A stretch of 64,000 nt of DNA from Bacteroidaceae bacterium (GTDB lineage Bacteria > Bacteroidota > Bacteroidia > Bacteroidales > Bacteroidaceae): positions 186,001 through 250,000 of the forward strand of contig JAGBBX010000011.1 in NCBI GenBank assembly GCA_017938245.1, written 5' to 3'. Below the pieces are notes generated by a model. It searched no databases and was not told the DNA's origin. It saw only the letters and a list, made by a program, of their open reading frames with translations. A program made the position numbers and the translations under genes. Positions 1 to 12,970 of this stretch are shown here, piece by piece. The stretch's first letter is position 1, and every line of letters begins with the position of its first letter.

Positions 1-3000
1 TGGAACAATATGTCAACCGACCTTTCGGATGTTGAATTGCCTGTGCCTACTAATGACGAGATACATAGGTGTAGTGCCGATTATCGTTACTATCTTAACT
101 ACTGTACTTTTTCCTATTCTATGGCATTTTGGACTTGGGAGCGTTGGCAGCAAGAGGTCGACTGGATGGCTCTGCACGGTATAAATATGCCGTTGGTGCT
201 TGTGGGTCTGGAGACAGTGTGGCGCGATGTCCTCACCGAAATGGGATATTCGAAAAGCGAGATTAATGAGTTTGTGGCAGGCCCCGGTTTTATGGCGTGG
301 TTTGCAATGAATAACCTCGAGGGATGGGGTGGTACAGGTGCCGGAATGAATGGTAACCCCGATTGGTGGTACGAGCGTCAAGGTAATCTTTGCCGCCGGA
401 TTCTTGCTGCTATGCGCGAGTATGGTATGAAACCTGTATTGCCCGGATATAGCGGAATGGTTCCCAACAGTATGAGAAACAAGAAACCCTCTTGGAATAT
501 CATTGAGTCGGGTATGTGGGCAGGAGGATACACCCGCCCCGACATTCTAAGTCCCGCCGATACCAAGAACTTTGGCTATATGTCAGAGCTCTATTATCGT
601 CATCTTAAGAAACTTATGGGTACGTCGGAGTTCTATAGTATGGACCCATTCCACGAGGGTGGTGTGCCCACAGGACAGGTGAGCATAAAGGCGGTTTACA
701 ACGGTGTTATGAAGGCGATGGACGACTATGCCATGACTGCCGAAGAGTTGTCGGCGTTAGGAATAGAGAAACCAAAGTGGGTGGTTCAGTATTGGCAGAA
801 TCTGCCTAATGCGACAGCTTTCGCATCGGTGCCTCTGGAGAATCCCGACCGCTTCGTAGCTCTCGACCTCTTCTCGGATGGTAATCCCAATTGGAGTGGC
901 AATCACTATGCGGGACACGATTTTATCTATTGTATGCTACATAATTTCGGTGGTCGTACTGGTCTGCACGGACGTGTAGCAAAGACCATCAGCGGATATT
1001 ATGCTGCTCTTAAAAAAGGCAATATGCGTGGAATAGGTGCCACTCCCGAAGGTATCGAGACCAACCCGATGCTCTACGATATGCTTTTCGAACTTCCCTG
1101 GAGAGCCGAGGAGCCTGCACCCGAGGAGTGGTTACGTACATACGCTTATAACCGCTATGGCATCGACTCAAAGGATGCACACACTGCGTGGGTGAAACTG
1201 TTAAACTCGGTTCACAATTGTACGGTTGATGGCCAGCAGGGAACTACAGAGCCTGTAATCCTTGCTCGTCCGGCCTGGACGGTAAACAGCGTGTCGAGTT
1301 GGAGTAAATCGGCTATCTATTGGGATGTTCAGGATGTGCTGAATGCTGCCGACCTGCTTCTGTCGTTGCAGAATGTACCGCAAAGTTCCGAGGCTAATTA
1401 CAGTTACGATGTAGTGGATGTTGTACGCCAGTCGATGGTCGATTTTGCCTACTATCTGTTGCCCGAAATTAAAAATGCTTACAATAAGCGTTACACAGCC
1501 GAGTATGAGCGTCTGTATAAACTATTCCTGCAACTGATGCTCGATGTAGATACATTGCTATCGGCCGATACCAATTTTACTCTTGGTCGTTGGACTGCTA
1601 TGGCTCGTGACGTTACCGACGAGGCCGAGGGTACGACGGTTGCCGATAAGAATTGGATGGAGTGGAACGCTCGTACGCAAATTACCGTTTGGTCTAAGAC
1701 CGACAGCAATCTGCACGATTACTCGAATCGTTGCTGGTCGGGGCTCATAAAGGATTATCACTACCAACGTTGGAAAATGTTCTTCGAAAATAATGGTGCA
1801 GCCCCCTTGGGTGGTTGGTTTACAGCTTTTGAGCGTCTCTGGACATTGAATTTTACCGATTATGTATATGATAACACCGTCTCGGGTGCCGATGCTGTTG
1901 CTACTGCAAAGGCTACTTTCGCCAACTATTTCGGCGTTCTTGGTGGTAGTTACTATTTCCCGTACGGTGTGACACGCGATGCTTCGGCAGTAGTTACGGA
2001 TGAGGCTTATCGTGGCGAGGAGTACCGACTTCCCATAAGAGAACTTAAAGCGGGTGTTTCGCTCGAGTCGCTATGGATTGACCTGAATGCCGACCTTGGC
2101 GTAAGCAGCAATGAGCAACTTGCAGTTGCGAACAACGCAGTGCAACTTCCTGCCGATGCTTTCATTGGTGCTGTTAAAGCTATCGCAACGCTCTCCGACA
2201 AGACTGTTCTTACATTTAAGGTGGCTATACGAGAGAAGATTACCGAGCCTCGTACTGTTACAGTTGCAACCGATGGCAACGGAACTGTATCTATAGAGGG
2301 CAGTGAAAGCCTTACGGTTAAGAATACCGACCCCGTTACAATGTTGGCAAAGGCAAATGCAGGTTACGACTTCTATCGTTGGGTCGACGCTAATGGTAAT
2401 GCAGTAAGCAACGAAAATCCCTATACCTATTATGGCAAAGAGGCAGCAACATTTACCGCGCAGTTTGTAGTGAACAAATGGGGAGTGCCCGGCGAGGATT
2501 TGTCCGATATCGGTGACATAAAGAGCTATGCGCAGTATGCCGAGTACATCTCAATAAAACGATATAACAAGGAGGAGGTTAGAATTTACGAGGTACAGGA
2601 GTCTCCCTCTAAACTCTTTAATGTTGTTCCCGGTATTGTAAATGTCGCTCGTGGCAGCAGTTTCGATATAAAGTGGAACGACCCTGCAAGCAACGGTCTC
2701 AAATATTGCTGTCTCTCGGCATATATCGACCTTAATGCCGATGGCGATTTCGATGATGAGAACGAACTTGTAAAGGTGCTTGGAACAAAGGGCGCTCAGA
2801 ACACTGCTGTATCGCAGGGTACTATAAATATTCTTCTGCCCTATGAAATTCCTCTTGGAATAACACATATGCGTATGCGATTCGATGGTGCTTGGAAAGA
2901 GGGATACGATAGCAAGACTAAAGCATTCCCTGCAAAAGCCGATGCCAACCGTATGATTTACGAGATTGTTCTTAATGTAACAGAATATCCCGAGACAGCT

Positions 3001-4218
3001 TCGCTCGTTACAATAAAGTCGAATAACGAGGAGTGGGGTAAGGCTACTATGGAACTCGACGGACAGATTGGCGAGAATACCGGAAGCGGAATCTCCGTTG
3101 CATCGGGAATGTCGATGCGACTCATCGCAAAGCCTATCGGAACGGCGCAGTTTGTCTGCTGGAAAGACCGTTACGAACGTGTTGTAAGCACAGAGCCTGA
3201 GTTTAAAATGTATGCTGTCGAGGATGGAGAGTTTACAGCGGTTTTTCACAAAGGTCTCGTGATTGAGGATTGGGTATTTGGTTACGAGACCGAAAACAAC
3301 GAGATAACCCTAACAAGCATAACAACAAAAGGTAAGGGCAACCTTGTTATTCCCTCAAATGTAACTATTGGTGATGACGAATATATAATTGTGGGACTTG
3401 CAAACGGTCTTTTCGATGGCGTAACGTCGCTCACATCGGTAACCCTGCCGTCGACACTTAGATTCGTGGGCAGCAATGTAGTGGCAAAGACTTCCATTGC
3501 CGGCAATGGCGAGGTGCAGATTTATAAATTAAAAAGTTCGCTGCCTCCTAAGAAGGCGTGGGCTTTGTCGTTGAAGGTATATACCGATGGCAGCACCTAT
3601 AATCAGTGGGGCTCGGGACTCCTTGCTACCGGCGAGGAGCCTTTGGGCGAGAACTACAAAGGTGGTTTCCAAATATATCTTGCCAAAGCCGGTAATATTG
3701 TTATGAAGATTGGTGGAAACACCGAGTATGCTCTTGATAACAGTGATTGTACGATAGCACAGGGTACCGCTTTTGACATAAATGTCGAGAGCAATGGTGC
3801 AGGCACACTAATGATAGAGGTAATAAATGCCAACGGTGTAGTGGGACGCAAAGAGGTATCGGTGTCACTGTCAAATGTGTTCTCTTTCTCTACTGCAATA
3901 CCCAAAGGAATTGACATAAACCTGTTCGAGGTGCGCTCGGGAACGATTCCCACACCTTTTGTGGGTTGCAGCAATCTTGTTGAGATTCTTGTCGAGGGGG
4001 GTAGTGAATACTTCTCTTCGATAGATGGTGTTCTTTATAATGCCGATGGCACCGAACTTATCTGCTACCCCGAGGGTAAGACCACTTCAATAGATATCGT
4101 AGATGCCGATTCGGTAGATGCACAGGCGATTTTCGACCTTGCCGGTAACCGCATCAAGGGTGTATCGGGTAGCGGAATTTATGTTGTAGACGGAAAGAAA
4201 GTTTTTATTAAAAAATAG
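1..4218 (+). CDS. Alpha-N-acetylglucosaminidase (GH89), multidomain, 5' partial
   Basis: Hydrolyses terminal alpha-linked N-acetylglucosamine, as in heparan sulfate ends or gastric-mucin GlcNAc caps; probably secreted. The reading frame is open to base 1, so the signal peptide and N-terminal domain lie outside the window. Numbering from the ATG at 10: the NAGLU barrel and C-terminal helical domain occupy about 1-710; likely catalytic glutamates are E216 (in DPFHEGG) and E347 (in TPEGIE), the two acids expected of GH89. Next come a divergent InlB-type repeat (about 755-825), a GEVED-like domain (about 840-1000, with DLNADGDFDDENE), a second InlB-type repeat, remnants of BspA-like leucine-rich repeats (FDGVTSLTSVTLPSTL) and a C-terminal IFDLAGNRIKG...IYVVDGKK tail typical of secreted Bacteroidales proteins. 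lnb starts 20 nt downstream without an intergenic terminator. The enzyme class is secure; the natural substrate is inferred. Confidence 0.9.
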   Translation, partial: WNNMSTDLSDVELPVPTNDEIHRCSADYRYYLNYCTFSYSMAFWTWERWQQEVDWMALHGINMPLVLVGLETVWRDVLTEMGYSKSEINEFVAGPGFMAWFAMNNLEGWGGTGAGMNGNPDWWYERQGNLCRRILAAMREYGMKPVLPGYSGMVPNSMRNKKPSWNIIESGMWAGGYTRPDILSPADTKNFGYMSELYYRHLKKLMGTSEFYSMDPFHEGGVPTGQVSIKAVYNGVMKAMDDYAMTAEELSALGIEKPKWVVQYWQNLPNATAFASVPLENPDRFVALDLFSDGNPNWSGNHYAGHDFIYCMLHNFGGRTGLHGRVAKTISGYYAALKKGNMRGIGATPEGIETNPMLYDMLFELPWRAEEPAPEEWLRTYAYNRYGIDSKDAHTAWVKLLNSVHNCTVDGQQGTTEPVILARPAWTVNSVSSWSKSAIYWDVQDVLNAADLLLSLQNVPQSSEANYSYDVVDVVRQSMVDFAYYLLPEIKNAYNKRYTAEYERLYKLFLQLMLDVDTLLSADTNFTLGRWTAMARDVTDEAEGTTVADKNWMEWNARTQITVWSKTDSNLHDYSNRCWSGLIKDYHYQRWKMFFENNGAAPLGGWFTAFERLWTLNFTDYVYDNTVSGADAVATAKATFANYFGVLGGSYYFPYGVTRDASAVVTDEAYRGEEYRLPIRELKAGVSLESLWIDLNADLGVSSNEQLAVANNAVQLPADAFIGAVKAIATLSDKTVLTFKVAIREKITEPRTVTVATDGNGTVSIEGSESLTVKNTDPVTMLAKANAGYDFYRWVDANGNAVSNENPYTYYGKEAATFTAQFVVNKWGVPGEDLSDIGDIKSYAQYAEYISIKRYNKEEVRIYEVQESPSKLFNVVPGIVNVARGSSFDIKWNDPASNGLKYCCLSAYIDLNADGDFDDENELVKVLGTKGAQNTAVSQGTINILLPYEIPLGITHMRMRFDGAWKEGYDSKTKAFPAKADANRMIYEIVLNVTEYPETASLVTIKSNNEEWGKATMELDGQIGENTGSGISVASGMSMRLIAKPIGTAQFVCWKDRYERVVSTEPEFKMYAVEDGEFTAVFHKGLVIEDWVFGYETENNEITLTSITTKGKGNLVIPSNVTIGDDEYIIVGLANGLFDGVTSLTSVTLPSTLRFVGSNVVAKTSIAGNGEVQIYKLKSSLPPKKAWALSLKVYTDGSTYNQWGSGLLATGEEPLGENYKGGFQIYLAKAGNIVMKIGGNTEYALDNSDCTIAQGTAFDINVESNGAGTLMIEVINANGVVGRKEVSVSLSNVFSFSTAIPKGIDINLFEVRSGTIPTPFVGCSNLVEILVEGGSEYFSSIDGVLYNADGTELICYPEGKTTSIDIVDADSVDAQAIFDLAGNRIKGVSGSGIYVVDGKKVFIKK

Positions 4219-4238: not shown

Positions 4239-5408
4239 ATGAAGAAATTAGTTCTTTTATTGCTCTTTATGCCATTGTGCGCACTTGCCGATGACAAAAG
4301 AGAGATATCACTCCTGACCTGCTCACCGGGTGAGCAGGTCTATGAATTGTTTGGGCACACCGCGTTACGTGTAACCGACCCTGCGCGAGGTGTAGATGTC
4401 GTGTTTAACTATGGCCTTTTCAGTTTTGATGAACCCAATTTTGTATGGCGCTTTGTACGTGGAGAGACCGATTATCTGCTTGGATGCACCGACTTTAAAT
4501 ATTTCATAGCCGAATATGGCATACGTGGCTCGGGAGTAACCGAACAGGTTCTTGCCCTCGACTCATTGCAAAAAAATAGGATAATAGAGGCGCTTGCGAC
4601 AAATTCTTTACCTAAGAATCGCGTTTATCGCTATAATTTCCTCTTTAATAATTGTACCACAAAGGCACGTGATAAGATACTCGAGGCCGTTGGGGGAAAT
4701 ATAGCTTATGCAGCTCCTTCGGTGGGTGACTCTCTCACATTCCGAGACATTATACATATGCATACAGCCCAAAATGAATGGTATCAGTTTGGAATGGATA
4801 TGTTACTTGGCGTCCCTGCCGATGAAACAGCAAAGCGCGGAGGTGCGCAGTTTGCTCCTTTTGTGCTTATGCGTGAGTTCGCCGATGCTACAGTTTCTGT
4901 CGATGGCTCTACAAGGCGCCTTGTTGGCGCGCAGCACGAGCTGTTGTTGCCACAAAAACGCGAGGCGGTAAGGAATAATCTAACTCCTTTTAATGTATCG
5001 TTGCTGCTTCTACTGTTTACTCTTGTGGTGATGCTGTGCGAACGTCGTTCGGGACGTACCTTTTGGCTGTGGGATATACTGCTGATGTTGTTGCAGGCTT
5101 TCTCGGGTTCTGTACTGCTTTTTATGGTACTCTTCTCGCAACATCCGGCGGTAGATTGCAATTGGTTGCTTTTGTGGCTTAATCCGCTGCCCTTTGTGCT
5201 ATTGCCTATTCTGTTGTATCGCGTAGGGAAAGGACTCTCAATGGACTTTATGTGGCTTCAGGTCGCAATGCCTACGTTGTTTATCGTGACATCGCCGTTG
5301 TTGCCACAGAGCTTTCCCGCACCACTCTATATTTGTGCTGTAACAGTTATTATTCGTTCACTTTTTTATATATATAAAGATAAAATATGCGCATTGGATA
5401 TACGTTGA
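4239..5408 (+). CDS. lnb: Lipoprotein N-acyltransferase Lnb (formerly DUF4105 protein)
   Basis: A 389-residue inner-membrane protein of the family recently identified as the Bacteroides lipoprotein N-acyltransferase, which would add the third acyl chain to the N-terminal cysteine of lipoproteins. A signal peptide (about 1-17, ending CALA) is followed by a periplasmic papain/NlpC-like domain with conserved H40 (in ELFGHTALRV) and C139 (in FNNCTTKARD), the expected catalytic pair. About five hydrophobic helices fill residues 250-389, as in the C-terminal Lnb membrane domain. It starts 20 nt after the GH89 stop and its last 22 nt overlap the next gene, so translation of the two is probably coupled. 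A 12-bp perfect inverted repeat lies inside the early coding sequence at 4316-4340. The function is assigned from the family, not from anything unique to this sequence. Confidence 0.85.
   Translation: MKKLVLLLLFMPLCALADDKREISLLTCSPGEQVYELFGHTALRVTDPARGVDVVFNYGLFSFDEPNFVWRFVRGETDYLLGCTDFKYFIAEYGIRGSGVTEQVLALDSLQKNRIIEALATNSLPKNRVYRYNFLFNNCTTKARDKILEAVGGNIAYAAPSVGDSLTFRDIIHMHTAQNEWYQFGMDMLLGVPADETAKRGGAQFAPFVLMREFADATVSVDGSTRRLVGAQHELLLPQKREAVRNNLTPFNVSLLLLLFTLVVMLCERRSGRTFWLWDILLMLLQAFSGSVLLFMVLFSQHPAVDCNWLLLWLNPLPFVLLPILLYRVGKGLSMDFMWLQVAMPTLFIVTSPLLPQSFPAPLYICAVTVIIRSLFYIYKDKICALDIR
4316..4340. repeat. Perfect inverted repeat inside early lnb coding sequence
   Basis: Arms GACCTGCTCACC and GGTGAGCAGGTC are separated by a single G. 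The element begins about 77 nt into lnb and about 98 nt after the GH89 stop codon. No T tract follows, so it is not a classical terminator; it could fold in the mRNA. Confidence 0.6.
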
Positions 5409-6937
5409 TTTTTTTGTTTATCTCGCTTTTCTCTGCAACAGCAAAGGATAAGGGCGATGGTAATATAAGGCTGGTATTATCGATAAATGTCGACCAGCTT
5501 CGCAGCGATTTTCTATATGAGTTCACCGGCCTCTATGGCGATAAGGGCTTCAAGCGTCTAATGAATGAGGGACGTCTGTACTCTAATGCTTATTATGCCT
5601 ATGAGCACATCGACCGTGCCTCGGCAACGGCAACGATGATGTCGGGAACCTATCCATACGTTAGTGGAATAGTCGCAGGGCAGTGGCTCGACCGCAGTTC
5701 GTTGCGCCTTGTTAATTGCACCGACGATAGTCGCTATAAGGGATTATACACCAATAGGTCTGTTTCGCCTGCCAAGCTAAAGTCGCTTACTCTGCCCGAC
5801 GAGATGAAACGTGCCACTCGTAGCAAGGCGCAGGTATGTGCCATAGCTCCCGATTGCGATGTGGCAGTTATGGCAGGTGGTCACGCAGCCGATGTCGTTC
5901 TGTGGAAAAACGATGATACAGGATTCTGGTGCAGTTCGTCATACTATGGTAAGTTCCCTTCGTGGGCAGCCGATTTTAATAAGAAGATTGGTACAAAAGG
6001 TGCCAATTGGAAACCTTTCTTTCCAACCGAAATTTATGAGAATTTCGGCGATAAGGCGCCAAAGGCTTTCAGTTACTCGTTCAACGGAACAAATGATGTA
6101 CGCGACTATAAGACAAGCGCCTGCATAAACAGTGAGGTAAATGATATGGCAATAGCCTGCCTGCGCTCGGGAAATATGGGTCTCGACGATATTCCCGATT
6201 TTCTCTCGGTGACATACTATGCAGGAAACTATAAGTCGGCACCTATGGAGAATCGTCCTATCGAGGTACAGGATATATATACTCGTCTCGACCTTAACCT
6301 TGCAGCATTGCTCGATGAGATTGACAGTCGCATAGGACTCGAAAATGTACTCATCTCGGTAGCCTCTACGGGATACGTCGTAGAGGGAGAGGGTGACGAA
6401 GAGGAGTATCGCCTGCCGTCGGGTTATTTGCAACTCGACCGTATCTCGGCGCTGCTGAATGTATATCTTGGAGCCATCTTCGGTAAAGGACAATATGTCG
6501 AAGGGTATCATAATACACAGCTTTATATGAATCGTCGTCTCATTGAGACTATGCAACTCGATAAATTAGATGTTATTTCTCACGCAGTGGAGTTTCTAAA
6601 ATCGTTAGAGGGTGTTGAGGATGTATTTACCATTTACCGTTTGGGAGGATTGCTCAGCCCCGAGATGCAGTATGTGAAGAATGGTTATAATGCCAACTGT
6701 TCGGGCGATATCTGGCTGCGTCTTATGCCGGGGTGGAAGATGGCTAAGGATGTGGCGTCGGCATCTAATTTGGTACGTCGCAGTTCGGTATTCTTCCCTA
6801 TGATTATATGGGGCGGAGGCGTGGAGCCTCAGTTGGTCGAGACAATGACTCCTGCCAATATTATGGCTCCCGAGTTGGCGCGTATCCTGCGCATACGTCG
6901 CCCCAATGATAATTGTCTTAGAATGTTCAACCAGTAA
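5387..6937 (+). CDS. PafA-like alkaline phosphatase family protein, apparently catalytically dead
   Basis: A 516-residue protein with a signal peptide (about 1-19) and the full-length fold of the PafA-type alkaline phosphatase/phosphodiesterase family. Aligned by eye to PafA of Elizabethkingia as I remember it, the first metal ligand survives (D36 in NVDQLRSD), but the nucleophile Thr is R77, the Lys/Arg pair is D156/D158, the Asp/His pair before the IEVQDIYTRLD motif is N281/A285, the SADHG pair is S327/T328, and the last His is S460. Structural motifs such as RLDLNLAALLDEID and PMIIWGGG remain, so this is divergence of the active site and not random decay. It overlaps lnb by 22 nt, suggesting a coupled role such as a binding or accessory subunit in lipoprotein maturation. 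The role is inference. Confidence 0.8.
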   Translation: MRIGYTLIFLFISLFSATAKDKGDGNIRLVLSINVDQLRSDFLYEFTGLYGDKGFKRLMNEGRLYSNAYYAYEHIDRASATATMMSGTYPYVSGIVAGQWLDRSSLRLVNCTDDSRYKGLYTNRSVSPAKLKSLTLPDEMKRATRSKAQVCAIAPDCDVAVMAGGHAADVVLWKNDDTGFWCSSSYYGKFPSWAADFNKKIGTKGANWKPFFPTEIYENFGDKAPKAFSYSFNGTNDVRDYKTSACINSEVNDMAIACLRSGNMGLDDIPDFLSVTYYAGNYKSAPMENRPIEVQDIYTRLDLNLAALLDEIDSRIGLENVLISVASTGYVVEGEGDEEEYRLPSGYLQLDRISALLNVYLGAIFGKGQYVEGYHNTQLYMNRRLIETMQLDKLDVISHAVEFLKSLEGVEDVFTIYRLGGLLSPEMQYVKNGYNANCSGDIWLRLMPGWKMAKDVASASNLVRRSSVFFPMIIWGGGVEPQLVETMTPANIMAPELARILRIRRPNDNCLRMFNQ

Positions 6938-7063: not shown

Positions 7064-7357
7064 TCAATAACTCTGTTCGATGTTCCAAACAAATGCTCTC
7101 AGACCAAGCTGTGGAGCATTGGTATCCATCTTCTTAATCTCGGCCAACAGATTCTCGACCTTGTTGTCGTCAACAATAGAGATTATGCCACCGCACATCG
7201 AGGGCCACGCGTGTGAGCCGTAGTGAGGGTCACCTGTGCGACTGCCTCGTCCCTGCATTTGGTCGAAGAAAGAGAAACCTCGGCAGTTGTTATGCTCAAG
7301 CATAGTTATTATATCTTCCTTGTGAGATATATCGAATGTAATAAATATACTTTTCAT
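7064..7357 (-). CDS. Small PII-like (ferredoxin-fold) protein following RND pump genes
   Basis: A 97-residue cytosolic protein with no signal peptide. The pattern FITFDISHKEDIITML, then RGFSFFDQMQGRGSRTGDPHYG, then GGIISIVDDNKVENLLAEIKKM resembles the beta-alpha-beta repeats of the PII signalling superfamily, with a loop where the PII T-loop would be. It lacks the classical uridylylated Tyr and the C-terminal PII signature, so a nitrogen role should not be assumed. It is the last gene of the tetR-tolC-mfp-RND operon, 74 nt after the pump stop and behind a strong hairpin. Small PII-like proteins are known next to metal and solute transporters; control of the pump is inferred from position only. 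Confidence 0.6.
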   Translation of the reverse strand: MKSIFITFDISHKEDIITMLEHNNCRGFSFFDQMQGRGSRTGDPHYGSHAWPSMCGGIISIVDDNKVENLLAEIKKMDTNAPQLGLRAFVWNIEQSY

Positions 7358-7382
7358 TTTCTTATGGTTTTAATATATGTTT

Positions 7383-7421
7383 CTTTCAGATACAGGCCGT
7401 CCGACAGCCTGTATCTGAAAG
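7383..7421 (-). terminator. 15-bp stem between the RND pump and PII-like genes
   Basis: CTTTCAGATACAGGC pairs perfectly with GCCTGTATCTGAAAG around a 9-nt loop. On the minus strand it follows the pump stop codon by 10 nt and precedes the PII-like start by 25 nt. There is no good T tract. It may be an internal partial terminator or an mRNA processing stem that lowers expression of the last gene. Confidence 0.6.
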
Positions 7422-7431
7422 AGCTACTTAA

Positions 7432-10400
7432 TTAGTTTCTATCCTTATGCTTTAGCTGCTCCTCGTGTTTGTGCTCGTTCCAGTAGGCTGCAAGCTCGCG
7501 CTGCTTTTTAAGGCTGCGACGGCGGTTCTTCACACCAACACCTGCAAATATACAGTACATTGCGGGAACATAGATAAGTGTCATAATGGTAGATACAGTA
7601 AGACCACCGATAACGGCAATACCAAGAGGACGCCACATCTCGGCACCGACACCCTGACTGACAGCCATAGGCACCATACCAAGAATTGTGGTACAGGTTG
7701 TCATAAGCACAGGACGCAGACGGCTCTTTGCCGCACCTACGCAGGCCTGAATAATACCCAATCCGCGCTCGCGCAGCAGCATAATATAGTCGATGAGCAC
7801 AATACCGTTCTTCACAACCATACCAATGAGCATAATACCACCGAGCATCGACATAATGTTAAGGTTCGAACCGGTAACATATAGTCCGATGAGCACACCA
7901 CTGAGGGCAAACACCACCGAGAACATAAGGATGAAGGGGTAGGTGAGTGACTCGAACTGTGATGCCATTACAATGAACACAAGGATGAGGATAATCAATC
8001 CCAACTGACCGAGGTCACGGTTAGAATCCTGCTGGTCTTCGTAAGAACCTGCCACCTGTACGGCAATACCTGAGGGTATCTCCATCTGCTCGATTACCGA
8101 CTCTCCGTATGCTACACCATCACTCAGTACTGCACCTGCTGCAAGCACACCATCAACGGTAACGATACGCTCGCGGTCTTTACGCTCGATGGTAGGAGGT
8201 GTATCCTTCTGTACCACCTTTCCAAGCTCCTTGATGCGAACAGGCTTGCCTGTAGATGAGTAGATTACGATATTCTCGATAGCTTCGATGCTTGTACGGC
8301 TCTCGGGCTCGTAGCGAACCTTAACATCGTACTCGTCACCATCCTCGCGGAAGTATGTTGCCAACGAACCGTTGTAGCGGTTACGCAGGTATGTGGCAGC
8401 TGTGCTAAGGTTGAGTCCGTGTATTGCCAACTTCTCGCGGTCGAACTCCACCTGATACTCGGGCTGGTAGTCGCTACGACTTATGATAACCTGTGTAAAC
8501 ATCTCATTGCTACGCAGTTTGTCTGCCAACTCTTTTGCTATCTTATCGGTCTCGTTAAAGTCGTGACCATAAATTTCGAATGTGGCAGCGCTCTGTCCAC
8601 CCATTCCCTGCTGACCTGTCGAGATGTTGCTTCGTGCAATCTCGGGGAACAATTTTACGTCGGCACGCATCTGGTCACAAATCTGGTCAATTGAGAGTTC
8701 ACGCTGGTCAGAGGGAACAAAACTTATATTGAAACTGATGATGTGCGAACCATTATCGCGCAACGAAGCGAATGTATTGTTCTCATCGGCCTGACCAACG
8801 GTGAAGTTACAAGCCTTAAGGTCTTTGCCGTAACGCTCTTTCCATATATTGGTGAGTTTCAGTGCAATATCCTGCGAGTGCTCGACACGTGAACCGATGG
8901 GGAGCTCGATTGTAGCTGTTGCACGTGCATTATCGTTCGCAGGGAAGAATTCACTCTTTATACCTCCTGCCAAAAGTAAACTCAAAGCAAACAAGCCGAA
9001 GCAGGCTGCCAGCACTGTCCAACGGTGGCGTACAGCATAGTTGATTATGCGTGCGTATAGGTCATCTATGGCATCAAGACCCTTCTGAATGGGGGTATAT
9101 ATCTTAATGAACAGCTTGCTCTGTTTCTTCTGCAATTTGAGCATCTTGGCACACATCATAGGTGTCAGTGTCAGTGAAGCAACCAACGAAATGAGCATAA
9201 TGATACACATCATCCAACCAAGCTGCTTGAAGAGGACACCTGTCATACCTGTTACCATTGTCAGCGGGAAGAATACGGCAAACATAGTGAGTGTAGATGC
9301 CATAACCGAGGTTCCTACCTCATTTGTTCCGTGAACGGCTGCATTATAGGGACTTGAACCGCGCTCGATGTGTGTTGTTATGTTCTCGAGCACCACAATG
9401 GCGTCGTCCACAACCGAACCGATGGCAATACTCAAACAAGAGAGTGAAATCATATTGATTGAGCCGTCGGTTGCAAAGAGGTAGATGAACGATGCTACCA
9501 GCGAGAAGGGGATTGTGATGGCAACGATAACTGTTGCTCTCCAACGTCCCAAGAAGATAAATACCACCAATACCACAAAGATAAGCGCATCGCGGATAGT
9601 GTCGGTAAGAGTGTTTACTGTCTGAACGATGTTCTCCGAGGTATCGACAATTATATCGAGTTCTACATCAGAGGGGAGACGCTGCTGTAGTTTGGGGAGC
9701 TCTTCACGAACAGCATTGGCAATGGCAACAGAGTTTCCACCCGACTGCTTTTGAACGATAATCATCGCTCCTTGCTGTCCGTCGGTGAAGCTGCGCTGTG
9801 CGCGCTCTTGAACACTGTCGACAATACGAGCAACGTCGCGCAGGTAAATATTTGCACCATTGCGTGTTCCGACAACAAGGTCGAGCATATCTTGAGGGTT
9901 CTTGAATTCTCCCTCGACGCGCAGTGAGTAGGTATTGTTACCAATATCGAATGTACCGCCGGGGATGTTGCGGTTCTCGGCCGAGATAACGGAGCTGACA
10001 GCCTCTACCGAGATATTATATGCCTCCATCTTCACCGGGTCCATATAAATGTTAATCTCGCGCTCGGGGGCACCGCTGATTGATACAGTACCAACACCCT
10101 CGATACGTGCAAGGGGATTCACGATGTTATCGTCGAGAATCTTGTAAAGTGCAGCCTGACTCTCTTCAGCCTTTACCGAAATCATCATAATAGGAATCAT
10201 ATCGGTAGAGAACTTGAAGATGATAGGGTTGTTGGCATCATCGGGGAGTGAAGATGCTACCATATCGAGTTTATCGCGAACGTCGTTCGTGAGGTCGTCA
10301 ATGTCGTAACCAAATTCGAACTCCAATGTGATGACCGATACATTCTCGCGTGAGTTAGATGTAATGTGCTTAAGATGCTCGGTCGAGTTCAGGGTGTTCT

Positions 10401-10602
10401 CAAGCGGGCGTGTTACGTTGTTCTCAATATCTTCGGCACTTGCTCCGGAGTAGTAGGTAAATACCATAATGGTATTTGTCTCAATATCCGGCATAAGGTC
10501 AATAGGGAGCTTCGATAGTGAGAATATACCGAATAGTGCAATCGCTAAGAAGCATAGCGATGTCATAATCGGTTTTCTTACTGAACTTTCATAAATACTC
10601 AT
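7432..10602 (-). CDS. RND multidrug efflux transporter, AcrB/HAE1 family permease
   Basis: The 1056-residue inner-membrane pump of a tripartite efflux system, exporting drugs, bile salts or other amphiphiles using the proton gradient. The length and the duplicated layout (two sets of six membrane helices, each with a large periplasmic loop) are standard for AcrB. The proton-relay aspartates D399 and D400 are present in GSVVDDAIVVLEN. The N-terminus (MSIYESSVRKPIMTSLCFLAI) starts at the first membrane helix as expected. It lies 26 nt downstream of the membrane-fusion gene in the same operon. The C-terminus is basic and lysine-rich (KNRRRSLKKQREL). Substrate specificity cannot be read from the sequence. 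Confidence 0.95.
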   Translation of the reverse strand: MSIYESSVRKPIMTSLCFLAIALFGIFSLSKLPIDLMPDIETNTIMVFTYYSGASAEDIENNVTRPLENTLNSTEHLKHITSNSRENVSVITLEFEFGYDIDDLTNDVRDKLDMVASSLPDDANNPIIFKFSTDMIPIMMISVKAEESQAALYKILDDNIVNPLARIEGVGTVSISGAPEREINIYMDPVKMEAYNISVEAVSSVISAENRNIPGGTFDIGNNTYSLRVEGEFKNPQDMLDLVVGTRNGANIYLRDVARIVDSVQERAQRSFTDGQQGAMIIVQKQSGGNSVAIANAVREELPKLQQRLPSDVELDIIVDTSENIVQTVNTLTDTIRDALIFVVLVVFIFLGRWRATVIVAITIPFSLVASFIYLFATDGSINMISLSCLSIAIGSVVDDAIVVLENITTHIERGSSPYNAAVHGTNEVGTSVMASTLTMFAVFFPLTMVTGMTGVLFKQLGWMMCIIMLISLVASLTLTPMMCAKMLKLQKKQSKLFIKIYTPIQKGLDAIDDLYARIINYAVRHRWTVLAACFGLFALSLLLAGGIKSEFFPANDNARATATIELPIGSRVEHSQDIALKLTNIWKERYGKDLKACNFTVGQADENNTFASLRDNGSHIISFNISFVPSDQRELSIDQICDQMRADVKLFPEIARSNISTGQQGMGGQSAATFEIYGHDFNETDKIAKELADKLRSNEMFTQVIISRSDYQPEYQVEFDREKLAIHGLNLSTAATYLRNRYNGSLATYFREDGDEYDVKVRYEPESRTSIEAIENIVIYSSTGKPVRIKELGKVVQKDTPPTIERKDRERIVTVDGVLAAGAVLSDGVAYGESVIEQMEIPSGIAVQVAGSYEDQQDSNRDLGQLGLIILILVFIVMASQFESLTYPFILMFSVVFALSGVLIGLYVTGSNLNIMSMLGGIMLIGMVVKNGIVLIDYIMLLRERGLGIIQACVGAAKSRLRPVLMTTCTTILGMVPMAVSQGVGAEMWRPLGIAVIGGLTVSTIMTLIYVPAMYCIFAGVGVKNRRRSLKKQRELAAYWNEHKHEEQLKHKDRN

Positions 10603-10628
10603 ATAGTGTCGTTTTTATGTTGTGTTTG

Positions 10629-11639
10629 TTACTTTATTACATTTACCTCAACTCCGTCTGCAAGTGCATTCTGACCGGCAATAACTACCTCGGCTCCTGA
10701 TGCAACACCCGAGATAAGCTCATATTTGTCGTCCATACGCTTTCCAATCTGTATCTTGTCGTAGTTAACCTTGCCATTAGAGTAGGTATAGATATAGTAG
10801 TCGCCACTACCTGCTTGTTTAATTACGGCTGCATCGGGTACTACAACGCGGCTCTCTTCACCAAAGTTGATTGTTGCGTGTCCGAACATTCCGGGGCGCA
10901 CGCGACGGTCACTGTTAGATAGTGTAATCTCAACGGGGAATGTGTGTGTAGTGGGGTCGATGGTGGGATAAACGATGTTTACTTTGCCGTTGAACAGCTC
11001 ATCGCCGTAGGTCTCGAACTGTAGCTCTACGTCGGCACCTTTCTTAACCTTTGAGTAGTATTTCTCACTAACGTTTACCTTCATCTTTACGGGGGTAATC
11101 TGCTCTATAACAAGGATGGGCTGGCCACCGTACATATCGCCGTTGTCGTAGTTGCGTGCCGATACAACGCCGTTGATGGGGCTCACAAGCACTGTGTTTT
11201 CGAGGCGGTTCTTAAGAGCCTTCTCATTTACCTCAAGCGCAGTCTTTGCATTGTCGTACTCGGCTTTTGAGGCACCGCCTACTTTGTAAAGCTCGGCTAC
11301 ACGGTTGAACTCGGTGCGCTGGTTCTCTATCTGAAGTGTCAACTGCTCAAGGTTGCTTGCATCAAGCTCTACCAATTTCTGACCTTTTACTACATTGTCG
11401 CCAACCTCTACAAGTATCTTGTCGATGCGCAGGGGAGCGTTGGGGATGATATTGTTCTTCACCTCGGCTTCAACGGTTGTGGCGAAGCGCTCGGTTTGAG
11501 CAACCATCTGTGCTGTAACTTGAGCAATCTTTACGTTGGGCTTTGTTACCTCCTGTACTGCAGTCTCTTTGGTTTCGCTGCCGCACGAGCAGAGCAGGGT
11601 TGCGGCAACCATTGTAATGAATGTAAGATTCTTCTTCAT
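10629..11639 (-). CDS. RND efflux periplasmic adaptor (membrane fusion) lipoprotein
   Basis: A 336-residue AcrA/HlyD-type adaptor linking the RND pump to the outer-membrane channel. The signal ends in a lipobox LCSC, so C19 is probably lipidated and the protein anchored in a membrane facing the periplasm. It shows a barrel-sandwich hybrid half (about 45-80), a short coiled-coil hairpin (about 95-140), the second lipoyl half (PINGVVSARNYDNGDMYGG), a beta-barrel domain and a membrane-proximal end (RVVVPDAAVIKQ). It is 14 nt downstream of the tolC-like gene and 26 nt upstream of the pump gene. Confidence 0.92.
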   Translation of the reverse strand: MKKNLTFITMVAATLLCSCGSETKETAVQEVTKPNVKIAQVTAQMVAQTERFATTVEAEVKNNIIPNAPLRIDKILVEVGDNVVKGQKLVELDASNLEQLTLQIENQRTEFNRVAELYKVGGASKAEYDNAKTALEVNEKALKNRLENTVLVSPINGVVSARNYDNGDMYGGQPILVIEQITPVKMKVNVSEKYYSKVKKGADVELQFETYGDELFNGKVNIVYPTIDPTTHTFPVEITLSNSDRRVRPGMFGHATINFGEESRVVVPDAAVIKQAGSGDYYIYTYSNGKVNYDKIQIGKRMDDKYELISGVASGAEVVIAGQNALADGVEVNVIK

Positions 11640-11653
11640 AATATTTTATGTTT

Positions 11654-12970
11654 TTATTCTTTTCCTAATACTGTGTTCAACTCGGATTGTGCTACAAGAT
11701 ATTCGAATATTGTGTTGTTGTAGGCGAGTTGTGTGTTTGTGAGCGATACCTGTGAGTTGTTAAGCTCCAATATAGTTCCCTTACCTACCTCGTAACGTTT
11801 CTGGCTGATGTTAAGACCTTTCTGTGCCTGCTCCACTGCCAATTTGCTCGACTGAAGCTGTTCGGTGCTCTTTTTCATATTGTCGATGTAGCTCTGTGCT
11901 TGCATATTCAGCATACGCTCGGTATTCAGACGGTTCTCGGCCAACTGGCTCTGCTGTATCTTGTTTGTCTTTAGCTTTGTAAAGTTGCTTGCCTTGAAGA
12001 GAGGGATGCTAAGCGACAGGGTCAGCGACGATGCGTTGCTCCAGTTGTAGTTGTGTACCTCCCAATTGGTGTTCGACATCGACTGATATTGATAGCTTCC
12101 TACAAGTGCAAGGGTGGGGTGGAACGATGTGTTCAGAATCTTGCGCTGTTTTCTAAGAAGGTCGGCATTGAGGTCTAATTGACGCAATGTTGAGTTGTTG
12201 CTAAGGTCGATGCGCTGTGTGCCTGCGGCTGCCATCTCTACCTCGTGATTCTTAAGATTGTCGTCTATTACAAGGTTGACGTCTGCTGTAATTCCCATTA
12301 GAACTTTCAGTTGCAGCTTGGCAAGCTCGACAGCGTTCTTGCCGCTTACTACTGAGGGCCAGGCGCTGTTCTTCTGAACCTCGGCGCTTAACTTATCATA
12401 TTCGCTTACGCTACCCTGGTCGAATTTCGCTTTTACGATATCGAAATTTATCTCGGCCTGCTTGTAGTTGTCCTGAAGCACTTTGTAGGAGTCTTGTGCA
12501 AGCATCAACTGATAATATGCCTTTGTAACCTGGTTTACAAGGTCTAATTTCGAACCGCGACTCTTCTCAACAGCAAGTTCAAGGTCGCTCTTGGTTAAAC
12601 TCATAGTCTTGTAAACAGCGGGTGCATATAATGGCACTGCAACCTGCAATGCACCGTTCCAAGTGTTAGAGTCGTCCATACCCATCTTGAAACTACCCAT
12701 ACTTGTCTTAATCTCGGCAACCTTAATGTTGTACGAGATTGTTCCGTCGATTGATACTGTGGGCAAAAGATTCTGCCAAGCCTCGCGCTTAGATACCTCT
12801 TTGAGCTGTATCTCCTGCTCAGCTACTTTCATCGTGGGATTCTCGCTCAATGCAAGCTCGATGGCTTTGTCGAGCGTAAGATGCATTGTGGGATTACCTT
12901 CCTGTGCGTATGTCAGCGTTACAAGCGCCAACATTGCAATCAATGTCTTAAATCGCATTTTAATGTTCAT
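11654..12970 (-). CDS. TolC-family outer membrane efflux protein
   Basis: The 438-residue outer-membrane channel subunit of the tripartite RND system. A signal peptide (about 1-22, ending TYA) is followed by two structurally repeated long-helix OEP domains; the repeats open with LTLDKAIELALSENPTMKVAEQEIQLKE and close with VSLTNTQLAYNNTIFEYLVAQSELNTVLGKE-type segments that form the alpha-barrel. It is the first transport gene after tetR (18 nt downstream) and precedes the adaptor by 14 nt. Confidence 0.92.
   Translation of the reverse strand: MNIKMRFKTLIAMLALVTLTYAQEGNPTMHLTLDKAIELALSENPTMKVAEQEIQLKEVSKREAWQNLLPTVSIDGTISYNIKVAEIKTSMGSFKMGMDDSNTWNGALQVAVPLYAPAVYKTMSLTKSDLELAVEKSRGSKLDLVNQVTKAYYQLMLAQDSYKVLQDNYKQAEINFDIVKAKFDQGSVSEYDKLSAEVQKNSAWPSVVSGKNAVELAKLQLKVLMGITADVNLVIDDNLKNHEVEMAAAGTQRIDLSNNSTLRQLDLNADLLRKQRKILNTSFHPTLALVGSYQYQSMSNTNWEVHNYNWSNASSLTLSLSIPLFKASNFTKLKTNKIQQSQLAENRLNTERMLNMQAQSYIDNMKKSTEQLQSSKLAVEQAQKGLNISQKRYEVGKGTILELNNSQVSLTNTQLAYNNTIFEYLVAQSELNTVLGKE

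Follow-up and report, generated by a model that had tools for sequence, protein, structure and literature searches.

The locus described here raises the question of what a protein with the fold of the phosphatase PafA, and without its known catalytic residues, does next to the lipoprotein N-acyltransferase Lnb, whose gene its own gene overlaps. The window, meaning the whole stretch of 64,000 nucleotides that was analysed, carries the following features of interest.

4239..5408, + strand: lnb, lipoprotein N-acyltransferase Lnb, 389 aa, with Lnb_N (periplasmic) followed by a five-helix membrane domain
5387..5408, + strand: overlap of lnb and pafA*, 22 nt in different frames, from the coordinates
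5387..6937, + strand: pafA*, PafA-fold pseudophosphatase (predicted), 516 aa, catalytic ligands replaced
5387..5446, + strand: signal sequence at the N-terminus of PafA*, roughly residues 1-20, without a lipobox, by eye
5492..5494, + strand: D36, equivalent to PafA D38, the only one of seven positions kept
5612..5617, + strand: D76-R77, with R77 in place of the nucleophile T79 of PafA
5852..5860, + strand: D156 and D158 in place of the phosphate-binding K162 and R164
6227..6241, + strand: N281 and A285 in place of D305 and H309; position 285 is freely variable
6368..6373, + strand: T328-G329 in place of D352-H353
6764..6766, + strand: S460 in place of H486, adjoining a low-confidence stretch of the model (pLDDT <50 at 456-459)

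The lnb gene and its surroundings

The upstream gene product scored over the Pfam cut-offs for both 5TMH_Lnb (114.2 bits, cut-off 25.2) and Lnb_N (89.9 bits, cut-off 22.2), and below the cut-off of the NCBIfam Lnb equivalog NF051878 (392 vs 550 bits). By both Pfam domains it is an Lnb-type protein, for which acyl transfer is predicted. The Lnb residues N138 and C139 were each retained in 168 of 171 Lnb rows. An earlier sequence-only reading of the window had described two open reading frames that overlap by 22 nt, and the coordinates (4239-5408 and 5387-6937, both on the + strand) bear this out. An lnb-pafA* overlap was also present in 29 of 30 loci of the window genus and in 65 of 80 named loci, measuring 4 nt in 53 of those 65.

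On the upstream side, window positions 10-4218 encode a NAGLU-type alpha-N-acetylglucosaminidase with InlB-like repeat and GEVED domains, which stops 20 nt before lnb. Downstream of pafA*, on the opposite strand (window 7064-12970), a 97-aa protein without a Pfam match comes first, and beyond it lies a likely efflux set consisting of an RND transporter, a membrane fusion protein and an outer membrane factor, all named by eye. The contig of the window is a perfect palindrome in which all 266142 bases match its own reverse complement, almost surely an assembly artefact. Each window gene therefore occurs twice, and a genuine second lnb-pafA* copy in the genome was rejected, the second copy being the mirror half of the palindromic contig.

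PafA* retains the fold and has lost the site

PafA* matched PafA of PDB entry 5tj3, which we take to be a zinc alkaline phosphatase, over residues 27-507 (4.7e-49), and its predicted model aligned with PafA end to end in the structural comparison; the PafA fold is present at full length. Against the NCBIfam PafA equivalog NF042991 the protein scored 268 bits, below the cut-off of 650. The zinc ligands and nucleophile of PafA were taken to be D38, T79, D305, H309, D352, H353 and H486, and its phosphate-binding pair to be K162 and R164; these roles and the numbering are our assumption, and 5tj3 carries the expected letter at each of the sites. In the alignment D38 corresponds to D36, T79 to R77, D305 to N281, H309 to A285, D352 to T328, H353 to G329 and H486 to S460. 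The six zinc ligands and the Thr nucleophile are thus changed at six of seven positions in the window, D36 alone being kept. This is the count given by the sequence-only reading, which, however, had placed the D352/H353 pair at S327/T328 rather than at T328/G329. Its assignments of the K/R pair to D156/D158 and of D36 as a kept residue agreed with the alignment to PafA: the pair K162/R164 is absent from the window protein. In addition, N100 of PafA aligned with G98.

With these replacements, the window PafA* is a phosphatase look-alike without the known catalytic residues, and it is predicted to be inactive. That fold and scaffold would be retained while the catalytic residues were lost had been proposed from the window sequence, and both the 146 homologues described below and the comparison of the model with PafA supported it. 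The structural comparison did not place intact zinc ligands elsewhere, and the end-to-end match of the model makes it unlikely that intact ligands are hidden by misalignment. The conservation of the changed state in the 146 homologues makes chance or a local sequencing error very unlikely. At the N-terminus, the model has a helix at residues 2-21, with low confidence at residues 17-23. A simple pattern for a signal-peptide site, [AGS]Q, was present in 79 of 80 named rows, a stricter regular expression matched 19 of 145 linked homologues, and a lipobox-like motif was found in 0 of the same 145.

Conservation and selection in linked homologues

The changed positions were followed through 146 homologues linked to lnb or secA, one of which (L078) is absent from the analyses of 145 rows. 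One of the seven positions is kept in 138 of these homologues and two in the other 8, and D36 is D in all 146. All seven positions are present in 8 of 8 intact PafA rows of the order, and 16 unlinked degenerate relatives retain 0 to 4. The site of PafA R164 is R in 0 of the 146 linked rows. Several of the replacing residues are themselves conserved: R77 is found in 114, T328 in 140 and G329 in 144 of 146 linked homologues, D76, P155 and G280 each occur in 97% or more of the 145 rows, and position 158 is acidic (D or E) in 138 of 145, with position 156 variable.

The mean entropy of the former active-site loops in the linked group was 1.36 vs 1.92 for the rest; only 0.0026 of random column sets were as low, and eight slid controls gave 1.62-2.06. 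For the same loops in the unlinked degenerate relatives the entropy was 1.87 vs 1.72 for the rest, with 0.82 of random sets as low. The conservation in the linked group is driven by D36 and T328-G329, together with nearby residues including D76, P155 and G280. Columns 77, 158 and 281 taken singly are of average conservation there, and columns 285, 460, 156 and 98 vary more than most columns do. Position 158 is acidic in 122 of the 125 rows in which position 77 is basic, and in 0 of the 3 in which 77 is itself acidic (Fisher p 0.007, uncorrected for kinship and with few independent events; two of the three acid-77 rows are sisters in the tree). This pattern suggests that the changed loops probably form a rebuilt pocket that is held by a salt bridge and is probably free of metal.

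Within the window genus, dN/dS for the mature parts was 0.029-0.096 for PafA* and 0.080-0.177 for lnb, several of the dS values being near saturation; the two least saturated pairs gave 0.033 and 0.034 for PafA* vs 0.177 and 0.084 for lnb. PafA* had the lower value in all nine pairs computable for both genes, of 12 tried, although the pairs share loci.

Gene neighbourhood

The related-genome search covered 120 genomes and gave matches in 98. From these, 90 places were taken, namely the 30 best of the window genus and 60 others (L001-L030 and L033-L092); further matches of the same genus (seven full-length, three partial) and a number of weak or second matches from other genomes were left out. 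Of 559 confirmed loci, the best 80 make up the named set, most of it from Bacteroides, Phocaeicola and Mediterranea, with B. fragilis and P. vulgatus ATCC 8482 among the members. Among the 90 places, all 65 lnb-adjacent copies are degenerate, and 0 of the 8 copies with a complete site lie beside lnb. The gene lnb is directly upstream of pafA* in 79 of 79 testable loci among the best 80 of 559 named, and in all 30 loci (the 30 best) of the window genus. The association with lnb that had been expected in other genomes therefore recurs, but it does not extend through the phylum: 43 genomes outside the order are listed for both lnb and a full-length PafA-like protein, and in none of them do the two lie within 10 kb. 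Across the order, at least 44 of the 149 listed lnb places that were entered are immediately followed by a PafA-like gene from the list of partner matches, which runs down to near E 1e-148.

A second neighbour, secA, was missed by the sequence-only reading. In the rest of the family it is as regular a neighbour as lnb, being directly downstream of pafA* in 75 of 75 testable loci among the best 80 of 559 named, and it is downstream in 34 of 60 family/order loci. Where secA does not stay beside pafA*, lnb does: in the window genus, with flanks of at most 1.5 kb, secA was found in 0 of 30 loci and lnb in 30 of 30. On the other side, 72 named loci had a long enough flank; coaX was present beyond lnb in 41 of them, as was bamG in 41, both on the opposite strand. 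Most named relatives have the order lnb-pafA*-secA, which points to a joint set-up of Sec export and lipoprotein maturation.

One of the 34 loci, L058 (genome G102), has pafA*-secA with no lnb beside it; the preceding gene is topA by eye, and two lnb matches are on other contigs. A second set of degenerate PafA relatives (L066, L067, L071, L074, L082 and L087) does not lie beside lnb, and its lost sites differ from those of the lnb-linked set. An M14 carboxypeptidase is nearby by Pfam in L066, L067 and L082, and a T9SS tail occurs in L066, weakly in L067 and also in the L071 gene. The genes pcrB, gldD and gldE, named from L071, are near the degenerate relative of that locus and have relatives in L067, L074 and L087.

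Fusions of Lnb and PafA*

The association with lnb is further strengthened by fusions of the two proteins. In L055 and L078, lnb and pafA* form one open frame. Genus g24 has the L055-type fusion in 20 of its 21 genomes; in the remaining one, G662, the match covers the Lnb half only. In family f42, to which L078 belongs, a stop-free fusion is found in 5 of 31 genomes, of which G113 and G697 share the same protein; in L187 of this family the two halves are in frame around a stop, and in its other genomes lnb and pafA* are adjacent or apart. With these counts, a sequencing or frame error as the source of the fusions was rejected. Since g24 and f42 fall in different clades, there were at least two fusion events.

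In total, 25 fused loci were read. The PafA* parts of g24 and f42, fused or not, are degenerate: they retain D36 and no more than one further position of the seven. The exceptions at D36 are an E in 2 of 19 f42 rows and one of the 20 g24 rows, which is truncated and leaves the position unread. In the L055-type junctions read, the last helix of Lnb is followed by a basic loop and then by a hydrophobic stretch that is the old signal sequence. This layout fits an Lnb end in the cytoplasm and a PafA* domain in the periplasm. An AF2 model of a natural fusion, from a 61-row alignment, folded both halves well (pLDDT 88.4), and its pTM of 0.58 means that it contains no confident Lnb-PafA* interface.

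Descent and losses

Complete PafA rows formed a clade of their own (100/99) with the window PafA* outside it. The linked rows formed a separate clade (100/100), which grouped with family f42 (100/98) among unlinked degenerate relatives. One of the trees was built without L081. PhoK, the outgroup, grouped with intact PafA on a long branch (2.51) and in an unsure position, and the fork at the drawn root was weak (66/33), so catalysis may have been lost once or more than once. Six genomes (G046, G051, G054, G056, G060 and G074) each have both an intact PafA and a linked PafA*, and in these PafA* is thus a paralogue. Unlinked degenerate relatives were also found in genomes without an Lnb match (G079, G086, G096, G103 and G115), which indicates that the loss of catalysis is not tied to Lnb. 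The simplest reading of the trees would be that catalysis was lost before the link to lnb, that linkage arose in one branch and that at least two fusions followed.

All 7 genomes of family f115 carry lnb, and none of the 7 gave a pafA* match in a search without a positive control; four of these genomes were also missed by profile A2, which matched 200 of 295 genomes. The two f115 loci that were read, L213 and L214, have lnb directly before secA, and the phosphatase-like gene is missing. PafA* was probably lost in this family while Lnb stayed. Since the family keeps lnb and shows no pafA*, Lnb can work without PafA*, and f115 provides a natural loss that is usable as a comparison.

Proposed role and alternatives

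The reading that we favour, and consider reasonably probable, is that PafA* is a dead PafA paralogue that works with Lnb in the periplasm and either assists lipoprotein N-acylation as an additional subunit or regulates it. PafA* would have lost the catalytic site, that is, all zinc ligands but one, the nucleophile and the phosphate-binding pair, while keeping the fold and signal sequence, and the old active-site loops would have taken new conserved residues (D36/D76/R77, P155 with D/E158, G280-N281 and T328-G329). Made beside Lnb from overlapping or fused genes, PafA* would be exported to the periplasm and act at the periplasmic face of Lnb. Its most likely job, although a speculative one, would be to hold or hand over the phospholipid head group or the lipoprotein substrate; a lipid- or phosphate-binding partner of Lnb had also been proposed by the sequence-only reading. 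In the fused form, Lnb with its five helices would end on the cytoplasmic side and the old signal sequence would become a sixth helix, and the order of the parts and their charges would place the phosphatase-like domain in the periplasm beside the Lnb catalytic domain. PafA* and Lnb are linked genetically; a physical link with contact between the proteins, a ligand in the pocket and an effect on acylation are inferred. A more specific version, to which we give slightly less than an even chance, is that PafA* is a dedicated pseudophosphatase subunit and the first accessory of a lipoprotein N-acyltransferase, in which the rebuilt metal-free pocket would handle the head group or substrate and, in gut Bacteroidales, tie Sec export to maturation.

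Chief among the alternatives is that PafA* serves the Sec step, a real rival because secA accompanies pafA* as regularly as lnb does in the rest of the family. PafA* would then be a periplasmic translocon factor, and lnb a mere fellow traveller in an envelope cluster with bamG-coaX divergent from lnb-pafA*-secA. This would account for the downstream secA in the named and the family/order loci, including L058 where no lnb is nearby, and for coaX and bamG on the other side. However, the window genus, genus g24 and family f42 keep lnb and have no secA in the flanks examined, the fusions seen join Lnb (the search covered Lnb fusions), and lnb-secA persists without pafA* in both f115 loci that were read. 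We consider this role unlikely. It is also conceivable that PafA* is still an enzyme, in which D36 with R77, D/E158, N281 and T328 would carry out a metal-free or one-metal reaction, perhaps on the lysophospholipid left over by Lnb. In its favour, the active-site loops are conserved above background on average, and phosphocholine complexes of ENPP6 and ENPP7 appear lower down among the structural relatives. Residual catalysis is nevertheless quite improbable when at most two of the seven ligand and nucleophile positions remain in any of the 146 linked rows, none of which has R at the R164 site, and when positions 285 and 460 vary freely.

A neighbourhood without functional tie, or a decaying gene, is already disfavoured, and we regard it as very improbable. 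The absence of a partner match in family f115 would agree with it, as would the 105 of 149 listed lnb places in the order that have no listed adjacent match, a figure that is inflated, the partner matches being at least 44. In contrast, purifying selection on PafA* is stronger than on lnb in every computable pair, fusions occur in two clades, and the linked loci have long open frames. PafA* is not a local oddity; it is strongly conserved and sometimes fused to Lnb, and this suggests a new helper in envelope building.

Comparison with known systems

In B. thetaiotaomicron, the tag that we take to be that of Lnb is BT_4364; from this tag, the gene order in relatives and the identity of BamG with Bt4367, the PafA* orthologue is expected near BT_4363. 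The BamG assignment is given in the available part of PMC12578637. Our literature search found no paper on the lnb-pafA* pair, none in which a partner of Lnb is described and none with BT_4363 or BT_4364; Armbruster et al. 2024 may mention the neighbour gene. A PafA survey, according to the portion of PMC8812569 that was available, dropped homologues lacking key residues and retained 423 of 468 isolate ORFs. The dropped homologues probably include such degenerate relatives, and their removal may be the reason that these relatives are undescribed. In addition, if pafA*-type genes are annotated as alkaline phosphatase, they should not be counted as phosphate-releasing enzymes.

Compared with PafA (5tj3), PafA* has six of seven metal or nucleophile residues and both phosphate-binding residues replaced. 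Lnb is the lipoprotein N-acyltransferase of Bacteroides (Armbruster et al. 2024, as cited in the available parts of PMC13103446 and PMC12994826), and the upstream gene of the window resembles it in having both Lnb domains. The difference lies in the partner gene, a new element in that the same parts of PMC13103446 and PMC12994826 mention no accessory subunit. Lnb was identified only recently, and if PafA* is indeed its partner, genetics could be used to test how lipoprotein triacylation is controlled in Bacteroides and Phocaeicola.

The closest working parallel to PafA* appears to be PbgA/YejM, a likeness drawn from descriptions. There too, according to the available parts of PMC7018646 and PMC13333357, a periplasmic domain of the superfamily without the usual catalytic residues is tied to a membrane part and serves envelope building, and metal-dependent phosphatase activity is reported for full-length YejM (PMC13333357, in the same part). 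PbgA/YejM differs in belonging to another protein family and in having a membrane part that is not Lnb. If the proposed role is true, PafA* would stand beside PbgA/YejM as a second case in which a phosphatase-superfamily domain lacking catalytic residues takes part in envelope building.
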